NCBI GenBank assembly: GCA_017651625.1 | Contig: JAGCCP010000055.1 | Span: 62,001-126,000 of the forward strand | Source of the DNA: Candidatus Ruminimicrobiellum bubulum | GTDB taxonomy: Bacteria > Elusimicrobiota > Endomicrobiia > Endomicrobiales > Endomicrobiaceae | Length of the DNA: 64,000 bases | Direction: 5' to 3' | Shown: one piece after another, positions 23,205-29,129 of the stretch | Numbering within the stretch: the stretch's first letter is position 1 | Layout of the letters: each line of letters begins with the position of its first letter | The notes under the pieces: generated by a model | Told to the model about the DNA's origin: nothing | The model's input: only the letters and a program-made list of their open reading frames with translations | Databases searched by the model: none | Translations under genes and position numbers: made by a program

Positions 23205-23990
23205 TTAATCTTTGTCACTTAACATTATCATTGAATTTGATTTATCACCCAACATATATTGAGGTAAATGGCCGTCCCATTTTTCTATCCATTTCAAATT
23301 GATAACGGTTTGGTTGGAAGAATCTCTGAGCAATTTTTGTTTTTGTGCTTCGGCTTCCGCAAGTAAAATAACTCTTTTCTTTTCTTCTTCGGCCTGCATT
23401 CTTTGATACTGTATCTTTTTAACTTTTTGTTCTTCTATTTGTTTTTCTTCAACAACTCTGTTAAATTCCGCCGTAAATTGGATATCAACGATATTTACGT
23501 TCTCTATTATTATGTTATATTCTTCGATTTTCTTTCTTAAATTATCCTCAATAGCTGCTCTTAAATTTTCTCTTTCTACGATAATATTTTCAACAGGCAA
23601 CTTTGAAATTGCTGTCTTAGAAACTTCTTGAATTGCCGGATATATAACTTTTACGAAATAATCTTTACCGATTTTTATGTGAATATCATTAACTTTTTCG
23701 TAAACCGGTCTGAAATTTACAACAATTCTTGCTCTGACAGTCTGTAAGTCTTTTGATGCGGAATCAGCTTCTATTTCTTGTTTCTGAGTTTTTACATCGT
23801 AATTTACTACTTGATGAACAAAAGGTAATTTAGGGTATGTTCCTTGAGAAAAACTTTTTGTTTCACCGGTAAGAACATTTATTCTTACACCTACAAAACC
23901 TACTTCAACAATAAAAAAACTGGATAATGCTATAAAAGCTATTATAATAATTGCTGCAAGACCTACTATCATTCCTGTGTCTTTTTTCAT
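23205..23990 (-). CDS. SPFH/prohibitin-family membrane protein
   Basis: The 261-residue protein has one N-terminal membrane helix (about residues 7-28), then a band-7/prohibitin domain starting VGFVGVRINVLTGETKSFSQ, with LRKKIEEYNIIIENVNIVDI. A charged coiled coil follows (about 165-225, rich in Glu/Lys/Gln: VVEEKQIEEQKVKKIQYQRM). Such proteins form ring scaffolds at the inner membrane and often regulate FtsH-type proteases or membrane domains. It is the last gene of a minus-strand run that also encodes ceramide synthesis; a membrane-domain link is speculative. Confidence 0.85.
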   Translation of the reverse strand: MKKDTGMIVGLAAIIIIAFIALSSFFIVEVGFVGVRINVLTGETKSFSQGTYPKLPFVHQVVNYDVKTQKQEIEADSASKDLQTVRARIVVNFRPVYEKVNDIHIKIGKDYFVKVIYPAIQEVSKTAISKLPVENIIVERENLRAAIEDNLRKKIEEYNIIIENVNIVDIQFTAEFNRVVEEKQIEEQKVKKIQYQRMQAEEEKKRVILLAEAEAQKQKLLRDSSNQTVINLKWIEKWDGHLPQYMLGDKSNSMIMLSDKD

Positions 23991-24025: not shown

Positions 24026-25063
24026 TTATACATTGACTTTTAAAGGTTGCCACCAAGATTTATTATTTAAATACCATTCTATTGTTTTCTCTATTGCCTG
24101 TTCAAATTTATATTTTGGTTGCCAACCTAATTCTTCTTTTATTTTTGTTGCATCGATAGCATATCTTCTGTCGTGTCCGAGTCTGTCTGCAACATATTTT
24201 ATTAATGAAGAGTCTTTACCTAAATATTTTAAAATTGTATCCGTAATATATTTGTTTGTTTTCTCGTTGTTTCCGCCGACATTATAAATTTCACCATTTT
24301 TGCCTTTATGCAATACAGTATCTATAGCTGAACAATGATCTTCAACGAAAAGCCAATCTCTTACGTTTAATCCGTCACCGTATAAAGGTACTTGTTTATT
24401 ATCAAGTGCATTTGTAATGAATAACGGAATCAATTTTTCCGGGAACTGATAAGGCCCGTAATTGTTTGAACATCTTGTAATATTTACATTTAAACCGAAA
24501 GTGTGATGATAAGCCATAACCAACAAATCCGCACTTGCTTTACTTGCCGAATACGGACTGTTCGGAGAAAGGGGGGTTTTTTCCGTAAAAAAGCCCGTTT
24601 TTCCGAGTGAACCGTAAACTTCATCGGTGGATATTTGGAAAAATTTTTCTATTTTATATTTCTTTGCAACTTCTAAAAGATTTTGTGTTCCCAAAACATT
24701 TGTTTTTACGAATATATCGGGATTGGTTATGCTTCTGTCAACATGTGATTCCGCGGCAAAATTTATTATTACATCTATTTTGTTTTCGGAAACGATTTTA
24801 TCAACTAATTTATTGTCGGCTATATCGCCCTTTACAAACAAATAATTCGGATTATCTTTTACATCATCTAAACTTTTAATGTTGCCTGCATAGGTCAACA
24901 AATCAAGATTAACAATTTTATAATCTTTATGCTTGTTAAGCATATATCTGACAAAATTACTTCCGATAAACCCCGCTCCGCCGGTTACCAAAATCTTTTT
25001 CTCTGAAAAAGATTTTGTAGGTGAATGGGTGAATGGGTGAATGGGTGAAGAGTTATTATTCAT
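24026..25063 (-). CDS. rfbB: dTDP-glucose 4,6-dehydratase with repeat-derived N-terminal extension
   Basis: This 345-residue short-chain dehydrogenase converts dTDP-glucose to dTDP-4-keto-6-deoxyglucose for rhamnose synthesis. Visible motifs are KKILVTGGAGFIGSN (NAD-binding), STDEVYGSLG, and the catalytic YSASKAS. About 20 residues before KKIL have no counterpart in typical RfbB and are encoded by the octamer array at 25021-25052. No alternative ATG exists after the array, so the frame depends on its copy number. It overlaps the upstream gene by 8 nt. rfbD and rfbC lie 28 kb away; rfbA is not in the window. Confidence 0.94.
   Translation of the reverse strand: MNNNSSPIHPFTHSPTKSFSEKKILVTGGAGFIGSNFVRYMLNKHKDYKIVNLDLLTYAGNIKSLDDVKDNPNYLFVKGDIADNKLVDKIVSENKIDVIINFAAESHVDRSITNPDIFVKTNVLGTQNLLEVAKKYKIEKFFQISTDEVYGSLGKTGFFTEKTPLSPNSPYSASKASADLLVMAYHHTFGLNVNITRCSNNYGPYQFPEKLIPLFITNALDNKQVPLYGDGLNVRDWLFVEDHCSAIDTVLHKGKNGEIYNVGGNNEKTNKYITDTILKYLGKDSSLIKYVADRLGHDRRYAIDATKIKEELGWQPKYKFEQAIEKTIEWYLNNKSWWQPLKVNV
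25021..25052 (-). repeat. Octamer tandem repeat inside the rfbB 5' coding end
   Basis: Three exact copies and one degenerate copy of the 8-bp unit GTGAATGG (plus strand) or CCCATTCA (coding strand) lie within codons 7-17 of rfbB. The unit is not a multiple of three, so gain or loss of one copy would shift the reading frame. Related CCATTCACC and TATTCACCC units occur again at about 25451-25470 at the start of the upstream gene. Confidence 0.85.
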
Positions 25064-25505: not shown

Positions 25506-26615
25506 TTAATTTCCGTAAACTGCATATTTTTTATATATGGATCCGCCCATCATTTCTGCGGTTCTTTGTGTCATTACATTGTCTTCCAAAATCCAGGAAA
25601 GTTCGCATTCTTGGTATCCGCCTTTAACGGAATTTATAAGAGCCTCCAACGACATATAGGCTTCAATACCTTTATGTCTGTACTCTTTTTTTACACCCAT
25701 AATCATAAGTCTTAAATCTTTCACTTTTTTCTTGTAATATAAAAATTTAAAAATTCCGAACGGAAACAATTTTCCGTACATCTTTTTAAATACGTAGTTG
25801 TAATCCGGAATAGCTATAAGCATTCCTATTGTCTTATCTCCGTCGCAGGCAAGCATTACAATGTTCGGATCTGCCAAGTTTACAATATCGTCTGCTATAG
25901 ATTCAAATTCTTCTCTTGTCCACGGAACAAAACCCCAATTCTTTTCCCACGCGGAATTATATACTTCGATAATATCTTCAAGTGTTTTTTTGAAATTACT
26001 TTTATCGAATGTTTTTATTGTTATGTTTGGATTTCTTTTTTGAACTATTCTTAATGCTTTATTAAGTCTCGGCATTCTGTCGTCCAAAGCTACAGGAATG
26101 TTATAAGCATAAAGTTCTTTTATCTTTTTAAGACCGCATTGTTCGGCCAAGTTCAAATAATATTTGTGAGTATAAGGCATCAATATTTTCGGATCACTGT
26201 CGAAACCTTCATATAAAAAGCCCACTTCGTCATTTGTTGACGGGTTCATAGGTCCCATCATTTTATCTAACTTGTTTTCCGATAACCATTGTTTAACGGC
26301 ATCAAACAATAGTTTTGCAACTTCAACATTATCTATACATTCAAAAAAACCGAAATAACCTATTTCCGTTTCTTGAAATTCTATATAGTTATAATCGATA
26401 ATACCTGCAATTCTTCCTACAATATTGTTTTTATCATCGTAGGCTAAGAATAATTGTTTTTTTGCATGTTTCCAATAAGGATTTTTTTCGGATAGCAACT
26501 TTTTGTTTTCTCTATCTAATTGCGGTATCCAATAATGGCTATCTTTATAAATTTTATAAGGTAATTTTATAAAGTCGTTTATTTGTTTAAAATCTATTTT
26601 CTTTACAGTAAACAT
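25506..26615 (-). CDS. GNAT-fold acyltransferase, probable bacterial ceramide synthase (bCerS)
   Basis: The 369-residue protein matches the long GNAT-related family once labelled dATP pyrophosphohydrolase. Markers are FIKLPYKIYKDSHYWIPQLD near the start, NPYWKHAKKQLFLA, GPMNPSTNDEVGFLYEGFD and MPYTHKYYLNLAEQCGL. The Caulobacter ceramide synthase, which N-acylates the sphingoid base, belongs to this family by my recollection. Here it follows the serine palmitoyltransferase by 3 nt, which strongly supports that role. There are no membrane helices. The acyl donor cannot be read from the sequence. Confidence 0.78.
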   Translation of the reverse strand: MFTVKKIDFKQINDFIKLPYKIYKDSHYWIPQLDRENKKLLSEKNPYWKHAKKQLFLAYDDKNNIVGRIAGIIDYNYIEFQETEIGYFGFFECIDNVEVAKLLFDAVKQWLSENKLDKMMGPMNPSTNDEVGFLYEGFDSDPKILMPYTHKYYLNLAEQCGLKKIKELYAYNIPVALDDRMPRLNKALRIVQKRNPNITIKTFDKSNFKKTLEDIIEVYNSAWEKNWGFVPWTREEFESIADDIVNLADPNIVMLACDGDKTIGMLIAIPDYNYVFKKMYGKLFPFGIFKFLYYKKKVKDLRLMIMGVKKEYRHKGIEAYMSLEALINSVKGGYQECELSWILEDNVMTQRTAEMMGGSIYKKYAVYGN

Positions 26616-26618
26616 TTT

Positions 26619-27950
26619 TTACTTGTTAGACCACAAATTTTTAAACCATCTTTTTGTTGCGGCTGCAAATTTGTTATTTGAAAAAGAAAAGTTCCATCTG
26701 TTATTATTTATATTGTAAGAAGATTTCTTTTTAGATCTGCTTCTTGTGTTGCCTCCCGGAATTATTCCGAGTTGTTTAGAAACTTTTTCAAATTTATCAA
26801 GAATTATTTCAAGATGTTCGTCTGTATGAGTTGCCATATAACTTGTTCTTATTATAGCTTGTCCTTCAGGAACTGCGGGACTAACTATAGGTGAAGCAAA
26901 AATACCTTCTTCAAACAACATTGCACACATTTGGAAAGCTTTCATATCTTCACCAACGGTTATAGGAATAATAGGAGATTCCGAGGTTCTTGTATCAAAA
27001 CCTAAAGATTGGAAACCTTCTTTCATTTTATTTGTATTTTCCCAAAGTTTTGCTCTTCTTTCAGGTTCATCTTGCAAAATATCCAAAGCAACATCTATCG
27101 CACCTACACAAGCAGGTGGTAATGCTGCCGTAAATATTAATGATCTTGCTGTATGTTTAATATAATTAATAACTTCACTTCTACTGGCTATAAAACCACC
27201 GATAGAAGCAAGTGATTTAGAAGCTGTTGCCATTAAAACATCAACTTCCGGTTCCATATTAAAATATTCTCCGGTTCCTTTACCGTTTTTACCTAGAACA
27301 CCGAGTGAATGAGCTTCATCTACATAAACTCTTGCACCGTATTTTTTTGCAAGTGCCGATATCTCAGGAAACTTTGCAATGTCTCCTTCCATACTGAATA
27401 TTCCGTCAACAACTATCAATGCCGAAGTTCCTTTAGCCTGAACTTTTGCCAACTGTCTTTCCAAATCAGCCATATCGTTATGTCTGAATCTTAACATTTC
27501 ACCGCCGAAAGAAAGTCTGCAACCATCTATAATAGAAGCATGATCTAATTTATCCGTAATAACAAATTCTCCTTTACCTACTAAAGAAGAAATTGCACCT
27601 AAGTTTGAGTGGTGACCTGTTGTAAAAAGTATAGCAGCTTCTTTACCTACGAATTTTGCAAATTTTCTTTCAACTTTTTCGTGCAAATCGTTTGTTCCGT
27701 TTACGAATCTTGAACCTGTGCAAGATGTCCCGTACTGTTTTGCTGCAGCAACAGAACCCTCTATAACTTTCGGATGATCTGCAAGTCCCAAATAGTTATT
27801 AGAACATAAAACTATTTTTTCTTTGCCGTCAATTTTAACTACAGGGCTTTGAACTGTTTCAACTCTTTTAAAATATGGGTACATTCCTGCAGCTTGTAAA
27901 TCTCTTGCTGCGGTAAATTTAGTACATTTTTCAAAAATATCGTTTGACAT
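26619..27950 (-). CDS. spt: Serine palmitoyltransferase (alpha-oxoamine synthase family)
   Basis: This 443-residue PLP enzyme condenses serine with an acyl thioester to 3-ketosphinganine, the first step of sphingolipid synthesis. PLP-site residues visible are His136 (KLDHAS), Asp211 and His214 (VDEAHSLG), and Lys245 in TASKSLASIGGF. The start AAGMYPYFKRVE and the SKSLASIGGF block resemble SPT more than BioF or Kbl, which have GTLGKA-type sequences there. A basic tail of about 45 residues follows the fold. It sits between the putative bCerS and CerR genes; the Shine-Dalgarno is ggtggag. Confidence 0.85.
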   Translation of the reverse strand: MSNDIFEKCTKFTAARDLQAAGMYPYFKRVETVQSPVVKIDGKEKIVLCSNNYLGLADHPKVIEGSVAAAKQYGTSCTGSRFVNGTNDLHEKVERKFAKFVGKEAAILFTTGHHSNLGAISSLVGKGEFVITDKLDHASIIDGCRLSFGGEMLRFRHNDMADLERQLAKVQAKGTSALIVVDGIFSMEGDIAKFPEISALAKKYGARVYVDEAHSLGVLGKNGKGTGEYFNMEPEVDVLMATASKSLASIGGFIASRSEVINYIKHTARSLIFTAALPPACVGAIDVALDILQDEPERRAKLWENTNKMKEGFQSLGFDTRTSESPIIPITVGEDMKAFQMCAMLFEEGIFASPIVSPAVPEGQAIIRTSYMATHTDEHLEIILDKFEKVSKQLGIIPGGNTRSRSKKKSSYNINNNRWNFSFSNNKFAAATKRWFKNLWSNK

Positions 27951-27976
27951 AAAAACTCTCCACCATAGAATTTATA

Positions 27977-28951
27977 TTAAAAGTATTTGTTAACTAAATA
28001 CCAATTGTATGTTATTTTGGCACCATTTTCAAGTTTTGTAAACTCAAAATCGGTGTCTTTTATTACATCCGAATTATCCGCTGTCCAATAAGTTTGTAAC
28101 ATTTCGATGATTTTTTCTTTACTTAATACTTGCGGTTTCTTTGTGATTTTTGCCACACCTTCATAAAAACAAGCAACTGTTTTAAAAATAAAATCAAACA
28201 AAATAATCGGCATAGTCTTTATATTATTTGCTTTTGCGATTGTTGTTGCGACATCTTTCCAAGTATAAATATTGCCGTCACAAAGATAATATGTCTTATT
28301 ATTTGTTTTTTCGTTGTTTAATGCTATTGAAATAACTTTTGCGATATCTTTTACAAAAACCAACTGAATAAATCTTTTAGTGTGAGTATTAGGTTTTAAA
28401 TGATGTTTAACCAAATTAAAGAAAATAAAAATATCTTTATCCCTTGGACCGTAAACGGATGCCGGTCTTATAACAGTATAAGGAATTATGCCGTCTAATT
28501 TTTTTATTTCTTGTTCGGCAAGCAATTTGCTCTTACCGTAATTTGAAACAGGATTTTCCTTTTCGGTTAACTGTTTTGGAATTTCATTTTGGCTTGGTCC
28601 CATTGCTGCTTGGGATGATATATAAATAAATTTTTTGATATTGCTTTTATTTTTTATTGCGGCTTGAACAAGATTTTTTGTTCCTACAACATTGGTATTG
28701 TAATAACCTTCCCAATTTAATGCCCTTACAACACCGGCACAATGAACTACAACATCAACCGTAGAAAGTAATTTGGATAATTGTTCTTCATCATTTAAAG
28801 AACAGTATTCAAATTGAACGGGATAATCTTTAATCCATTTTAAATTTGAACTTTTTCTCGCTGTGGCAATGATTGTATGATTATTTGAAATAAGTTCTTC
28901 TACTATATGGCTTCCTACAAAACCTGTAGCACCGGTGAGCAAAACTCGCAT
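27977..28951 (-). CDS. Extended SDR reductase, probable ceramide/ketosphinganine reductase (CerR-like)
   Basis: The 324-residue NAD(P)-dependent epimerase-type protein has GATGFVG at residues 7-13, the active-site pair Tyr138 and Lys142 (YGKSK), and an upstream ISSQAAMGPS segment. It heads the three-gene minus-strand set with spt and the bCerS-like gene. In Caulobacter an SDR of this kind (CerR) reduces the keto group during ceramide synthesis; that equivalence is inferred from context and fold. The Shine-Dalgarno taggag precedes the ATG. The tRNA-Met gene lies upstream. Confidence 0.8.
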   Translation of the reverse strand: MRVLLTGATGFVGSHIVEELISNNHTIIATARKSSNLKWIKDYPVQFEYCSLNDEEQLSKLLSTVDVVVHCAGVVRALNWEGYYNTNVVGTKNLVQAAIKNKSNIKKFIYISSQAAMGPSQNEIPKQLTEKENPVSNYGKSKLLAEQEIKKLDGIIPYTVIRPASVYGPRDKDIFIFFNLVKHHLKPNTHTKRFIQLVFVKDIAKVISIALNNEKTNNKTYYLCDGNIYTWKDVATTIAKANNIKTMPIILFDFIFKTVACFYEGVAKITKKPQVLSKEKIIEMLQTYWTADNSDVIKDTDFEFTKLENGAKITYNWYLVNKYF

Positions 28952-29024
28952 CTTTATATACTCCTATTATTTTAACTTTTAATCATTAACTAACTATAAA
29001 TTGTGTTTTTTTGCATAAAAAAAT

Positions 29025-29096
<72 letters not shown>

Positions 29097-29129
29097 ATTA
29101 AATAAACAAACTATAAACAATGTTCATGT

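Follow-up and report, generated by a model that had tools for sequence, protein, structure and literature searches.

Ceramide is a membrane lipid familiar above all from animals. Whether it might also be made by a rumen member of the phylum Elusimicrobiota is a question raised by three neighboring open reading frames (ORFs) on the minus strand of a 64,000-nucleotide stretch of contig JAGCCP010000055.1 from Candidatus Ruminimicrobiellum bubulum, referred to here as the window. The ORFs encode a short-chain dehydrogenase/reductase (SDR), an alpha-oxoamine synthase and a GNAT-like protein; an earlier note on this DNA took them for the core ceramide enzymes CerR, Spt and bCerS. That reading is supported by tree, homology and conserved residues, and we consider it very probable that the operon makes ceramide or dihydroceramide, a prediction that draws on gene identity, tree, active-site residues, fold and gene order. 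The source genome (1.88 Mb, listed as 100% complete) belongs to the family Endomicrobiaceae; its nearest named record, in which the GNAT protein is 96% identical, is a sheep-rumen metagenome-assembled genome (MAG), and the “ruminant” genera of PMC11257099 are among its relatives.

The layout is as the earlier note described it. The SDR gene (positions 27977 to 28951, 324 amino acids) is separated by 26 nt from the synthase gene (26619 to 27950, 443 amino acids), and this in turn by 3 nt from the GNAT gene (25506 to 26615, 369 amino acids). The motifs singled out at the time are present as well: SKSLASIGGF at synthase residues 244-253 and LPYKIYKDSHYWIP close to the N-terminus of the GNAT protein. 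Because all three proteins are full length with strong family matches, and because their order is repeated in dozens of genomes, the arrangement is not due to chance. Promoter-like sites were no more frequent than in shuffled sequences.

Assignment of the synthase as a probable serine palmitoyltransferase (SPT) is well supported by several lines of comparison. Among all 20 families scored, the NCBIfam model NF047600 (CFB serine palmitoyltransferase) gave the top score, 513 bits, against 402 for Kbl and 392 for BioF; two other SPT models scored 391 and 313 bits. The best relatives in the PDB are the Sphingobacterium multivorum SPT entries (397 bits), with Thermus BioF/Kbl next at about 312. A maximum-likelihood tree of 61 sequences, including SPT-like proteins from many phyla, placed the window synthase and all seven reference SPTs (from Sphingobacterium, Bacteroidales, E. 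coli, Sphingomonas and Roseomonas) in one 51-row group with support of 100/99, while Kbl (99/94) and BioF (98/91) fell outside it; the clustering with BioF or Kbl that the earlier note had allowed for was not seen. The window protein falls in a group of Elusimicrobiota sequences that neighbors one from Nitrospirota.

The active site is likewise of SPT type. Judged by the residues described for the S. multivorum enzyme (PMC10196870), the synthase retains the catalytic set (N51, H137, H214, T242, K245 and R368) and the substrate-binding set, with G79-S80 present. In eight alignment columns, six SPT references share a residue that the Kbl/BioF references lack; at four of these, all active-site positions (N84, S246, A275 and A359), the synthase is SPT-like.

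For the GNAT protein, Pfam returns a weak GNAT match only, and its identity is better seen from relatives. It aligns with E. coli YghO at 32% identity over 98% coverage (E 6e-63) and with the Sphingomonas and Roseomonas counterparts at 30% identity. yghO and Caulobacter CC_1154 are listed as the same gene, needed for dihydroceramide synthesis (PMC9386255), and in the E. coli record yghO stands beside an annotated synthase, acyl carrier protein (ACP), epimerase and fatty acyl-AMP ligase, in agreement with the published cluster. Across 26 diverse homologues 21 positions are invariant or nearly so, and the window protein has the conserved residues of the family. The AlphaFold2 model is of good quality (mean predicted local distance difference test score, pLDDT, 91.5; predicted template modeling score, pTM, 0.89); tandem-GNAT enzymes head its PDB matches, and N-myristoyltransferases follow lower down. 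A PDB search by sequence found no significant relative, so the fold assignment rests on the predicted model. In a tree of 83 sampled GNATs, an SPT gene lies within 2.5 kb of 59, including nearly all close relatives of the window protein. Membership in the bCerS/YghO family, and with it the role of putative ceramide synthase, is therefore well supported; the protein groups with YghO/bCerS, and not outside the family as the earlier note had considered.

The third protein is well supported as a CerR-like extended SDR, with a putative 3-keto reduction step as its role. It belongs to the PF01370 epimerase family and carries TGxxGxxG at residue 6 and YGKSK at residue 138. When the epimerase of the E. 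coli ceramide cluster is compared with the window, this SDR is the best match (31% over 322 amino acids, 137 bits), and the next SDR, RmlB, scores 37 bits. The cluster SDRs of Aureispira, Rubrobacter, Streptomyces and Sphingomonas also have it as their best window match. Caulobacter CerR is reported to be periplasmic, and deletion of its gene leads to accumulation of oxidized ceramide (PMC11087976).

Gene order was sampled at 80 loci fetched with a GNAT sequence. Endomicrobia and Nitrospirota as a rule have SDR-SPT-GNAT with order and strand preserved; in Zixibacteria, Calditrichota, Ignavibacteria, Desulfarculaceae and other Elusimicrobiota families there are SPT-GNAT pairs whose SDR is placed differently or was not detected. 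Among high-quality genomes, 28 of 32 in the family Endomicrobiaceae and 140 of 192 in the phylum have the GNAT. Together with Spt-like genes in 38 phyla (PMC11334938), this fits poorly with the earlier description of bacterial sphingolipid synthesis as patchy. Among endosymbionts with genomes of 0.5-0.6 Mb, three (G015, G036 and G040) retain SPT and GNAT. In two other endosymbionts (G004, locus L130; G044, locus L129) SPT is gone from the middle of the operon and the SDR and GNAT frames are intact, a hint that the loss happened very recently or that these two proteins have a role of their own; in a further one (G023) the operon is in ruins. Two actinobacteria, Rubrobacter radiotolerans and Streptomyces sp. 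NBC_01001 (L097 and L107), carry SPT-GNAT-SDR operons on plasmids; to our knowledge they are not usually considered sphingolipid makers.

The pathway would begin with the cytoplasmic, pyridoxal phosphate-dependent SPT (Lys245) condensing L-serine with a long-chain acyl thioester to give 3-ketosphinganine. The tandem-GNAT bCerS would then add the second acyl chain to the amine, and the SDR would reduce the 3-keto group; we infer this order of the last two steps, acylation and then reduction. The ceramide product would presumably reach the outer membrane. As for the acyl donor, this is likely to be acyl-CoA or acyl-AcpP and not a dedicated AcpR. An ACP, which the earlier note proposed to seek in the genome, was found in housekeeping form (the best match is a FabF-linked housekeeping-type gene, 30% over 53 amino acids); a dedicated AcpR was not. 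AMP-ligase matches in the source genome are weak and generic. One further region of that genome (L156, G000:C17:1-16000) holds two ACPs, FabF-like ketosynthases, an acyltransferase-like gene, an exporter-like large membrane protein and an AMP-ligase-like protein; on the evidence of ORF starts and two Pfam searches, it resembles aryl polyene clusters.

Several observations weigh against ceramide as the product. A dedicated AcpR/AasR pair, as in the rhodobacterial five-gene ceramide system, was searched for and not found. The synthase, at 513 bits, does not reach the curated equivalog cut-off of 640 bits for NF047600; that model was built for the CFB group, and the miss therefore excludes this equivalog group, not SPT function. 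Of the SPT-fixed columns, two resemble Kbl/BioF in the synthase (P36 and C49) and two match neither group (S353 and I366). Identity of the GNAT protein to proteins with genetic evidence is only 26-32%, and 24 of the 83 sampled family members have no SPT within 2.5 kb. Finally, the source genome encodes an orphan BioB.

Which other products could the trio make? The alternative that survives best is a synthase using mainly alanine or glycine, yielding 1-deoxyceramides instead of ceramides. In anoxic Black Sea water 1-deoxysphingolipids occur alongside Spt-like genes of many phyla (PMC11334938), and alanine and glycine are weakly accepted by S. multivorum SPT (PMC10196870). The residues surrounding the serine hydroxyl in that enzyme (N52, G80, S81 and S243), however, are all conserved in the window synthase. 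Serine is accordingly the substrate that we would predict, and 1-deoxyceramides are an improbable main product.

Somewhat less probable again is an N-acyl amino-ketone lipid without a name, in which the GNAT acylates the SPT product and the SDR acts on another substrate. SPT-GNAT pairs with no detectable SDR nearby do exist, in Elusimicrobiaceae and others (L133-L139), and reduction is therefore the least tightly linked step. Yet throughout Endomicrobia and Nitrospirota the SDR stays collinear with SPT and GNAT, and it is the window protein closest to the reductase of the E. coli cluster.

A synthase belonging to biotin or threonine metabolism, as BioF or Kbl, with the GNAT adjacent by accident, is very improbable. 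In favor of this idea, the synthase is the sole alpha-oxoamine synthase of the source genome, and the BioB mentioned above is encoded there. But no BioA exceeds the cut-off in that genome, and the BioB gene (L109, G000:C27) adjoins a gene for a SufC-like ATPase; with one alpha-oxoamine synthase and no BioA over the cut-off, the genome probably does not use this enzyme as the BioF of a biotin pathway. In relatives that possess a distinct BioF, such as G074, where it lies among biotin genes, the SPT gene is present too, so single-copy status does not make the synthase a BioF. The conserved order with SDR and GNAT also speaks against it, and the identity was rejected on tree, HMM (hidden Markov model) scores and active-site residues. 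Least probable of all is sulfonolipid (capnine) synthesis from cysteate, whose enzymes share the superfamily and a similar pathway logic: the cysteate transferase SulA is marked by active-site Lys281 (PMC9304779), a position occupied in the synthase, as in SPT, by alanine (A275), and on that ground this identity was rejected.

With ceramide preferred as the product, the trio can be set beside known systems. The same three families are clustered in Caulobacter crescentus (spt, bcerS or CC_1154, and cerR) and in E. coli BL21 (spt-acpR-epi-aasR-yghO), and the E. coli proteins are clear homologues of all three window proteins. Unlike these, the window has a single compact SDR-SPT-GNAT operon with no AcpR or AasR, and its SPT is nearer the Bacteroidota type by HMM score and bears an extra C-terminal tail. 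The SPT of Bacteroidota (Bacteroides, Sphingobacterium) represents the closest curated family, NF047600, and the closest solved structure, 3a2b. Sphingolipid genes in that phylum are scattered, unlike those of the window, and the 3-ketosphinganine reductase of B. thetaiotaomicron is BT_0972 (PMC9278070). Clusters of Spt-like, bCerS and CerR genes are reported from Black Sea MAGs of 38 (about 40) phyla (PMC11334938), which have in common with the window the same co-localized trio in uncultured anaerobes; the main text of that paper does not name Elusimicrobiota. The setting differs, the present operons being from rumen and termite-gut Endomicrobia, endosymbionts included. Among the papers searched, none links Elusimicrobiota to serine palmitoyltransferase, and the Endomicrobia genome paper (PMC11257099) does not mention sphingolipids. 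The trio as such is thus already known; what is new are two modest leads, retention of the operon without lipid A genes and the SPT tail.

The earlier note suggested that ceramide might replace part of the lipid A. For the source genome this is unsupported: both LpxC (an LpxC-FabZ fusion, judged from a 448-amino-acid ORF) and LpxB are present, and on present evidence replacement is therefore not applicable there. Of the 32 high-quality genomes of the family, 31 have LpxC and 31 have LpxB. In two Endomicrobiellum endosymbionts, G006 and G026, the SDR, SPT and GNAT genes are all intact, but LpxB was not found and there is no intact LpxC. In G026 (L159, G026:C2:133000-139500; also L160 and L161) the LpxC half consists of fragments with stops and the fused FabZ frame is intact. 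Because the FabZ half survives beside the stop-ridden fragments, this is true gene decay and not an assembly gap. With each genome about 83% complete, the absence of LpxB could reflect a gap in the assembly. Whether the presence of SPT is correlated with that of LpxC in the endosymbiont genus was tested on hand-counted genomes (Fisher p = 0.067), but incomplete assemblies confound the result and it was not used. It is possible, though we hold it to be doubtful, that Endomicrobiaceae ceramides are outer-membrane lipids able to replace lipid A, with the intracellular G026, and probably G006, as a natural counterpart of lipid A-free Caulobacter. Retention of the ceramide operon without lipid A genes is a lead, not a demonstration.

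The other lead is the tail of the window SPT, 46 residues past the usual end (residues 398-443, positions 26622 to 26759, minus strand), a basic linker followed by a short helix ending in WFKNLW. It holds 11 lysine or arginine residues and no aspartate or glutamate, and its motif resembles FSFS....ATK.W.KNLW. Among tail-bearing Endomicrobia the tail is conserved, with scores far above those of shuffled tails (for L033, 101 versus at most 43), and other Elusimicrobiota SPTs have shorter, tryptophan-containing basic tails. In Nitrospirota, Bacteroidota, Elusimicrobiaceae and the termite-associated genera of Endomicrobiaceae, the SPT has no such tail. The termite clade has lost it, as has one rumen MAG (L011, G073); a look 3' of the SPT stop in termite Endomicrobiaceae gave no convincing remnants. 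In the AlphaFold2 model the linker is disordered and residues 425-440 form a low-confidence helix; the amphipathic character is marginal (shuffle p = 0.046). Docking to the membrane or to a partner would be a guess; as a clade-specific feature the tail is a modest new lead.

Genes flanking the operon differ between relatives. Upstream in the window, with a spacing of 72 nt, lies tRNA-Met(CAT) (29024 to 29097, minus strand; found with ARAGORN). Downstream, an ORF of the 23S-IVP/four-helix-bundle type (PF05635; 25056-25457) stands between the GNAT gene and a gene for an rmlB-like dTDP-glucose 4,6-dehydratase (24026 to 25063, minus strand), the downstream neighbor in the ruminant clade, with no pathway role shown. 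rmlB follows GNAT immediately in L009 and L012 and one gene further on in L013. In L009 the interval is only 8 nt, and in the window it is filled by the 23S-IVP-type ORF, which is probably a recent insertion; rmlB of the window starts with an odd N-terminal extension (MNNNSSPIHPFTHSPTK). An SPFH gene (23205-23990), called adjacent by the earlier note and put forward there as a possible organizer of sphingolipid membranes, is about 1.5 kb further on, behind these two genes. It is near the operon only in the closest relatives, L009 and L011, with no evidence of a link; the neighborhood is not conserved past them, and the partnership was dropped as evidence. No headgroup enzyme was obvious beside the operon, as judged from predicted ORF starts, and ceramide kinase or headgroup genes were not searched for across the genome.

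These findings would place ceramide synthesis in a second phylum of the rumen and termite gut besides Bacteroidota, one in which it is widespread. Given the GNAT gene in 140 of 192 high-quality genomes, Elusimicrobiota could contribute to gut sphingolipid pools. Conservation of the operon in endosymbionts of 0.5-0.6 Mb, sometimes without lipid A genes, may make the question of sphingolipid in place of lipid A testable in nature.

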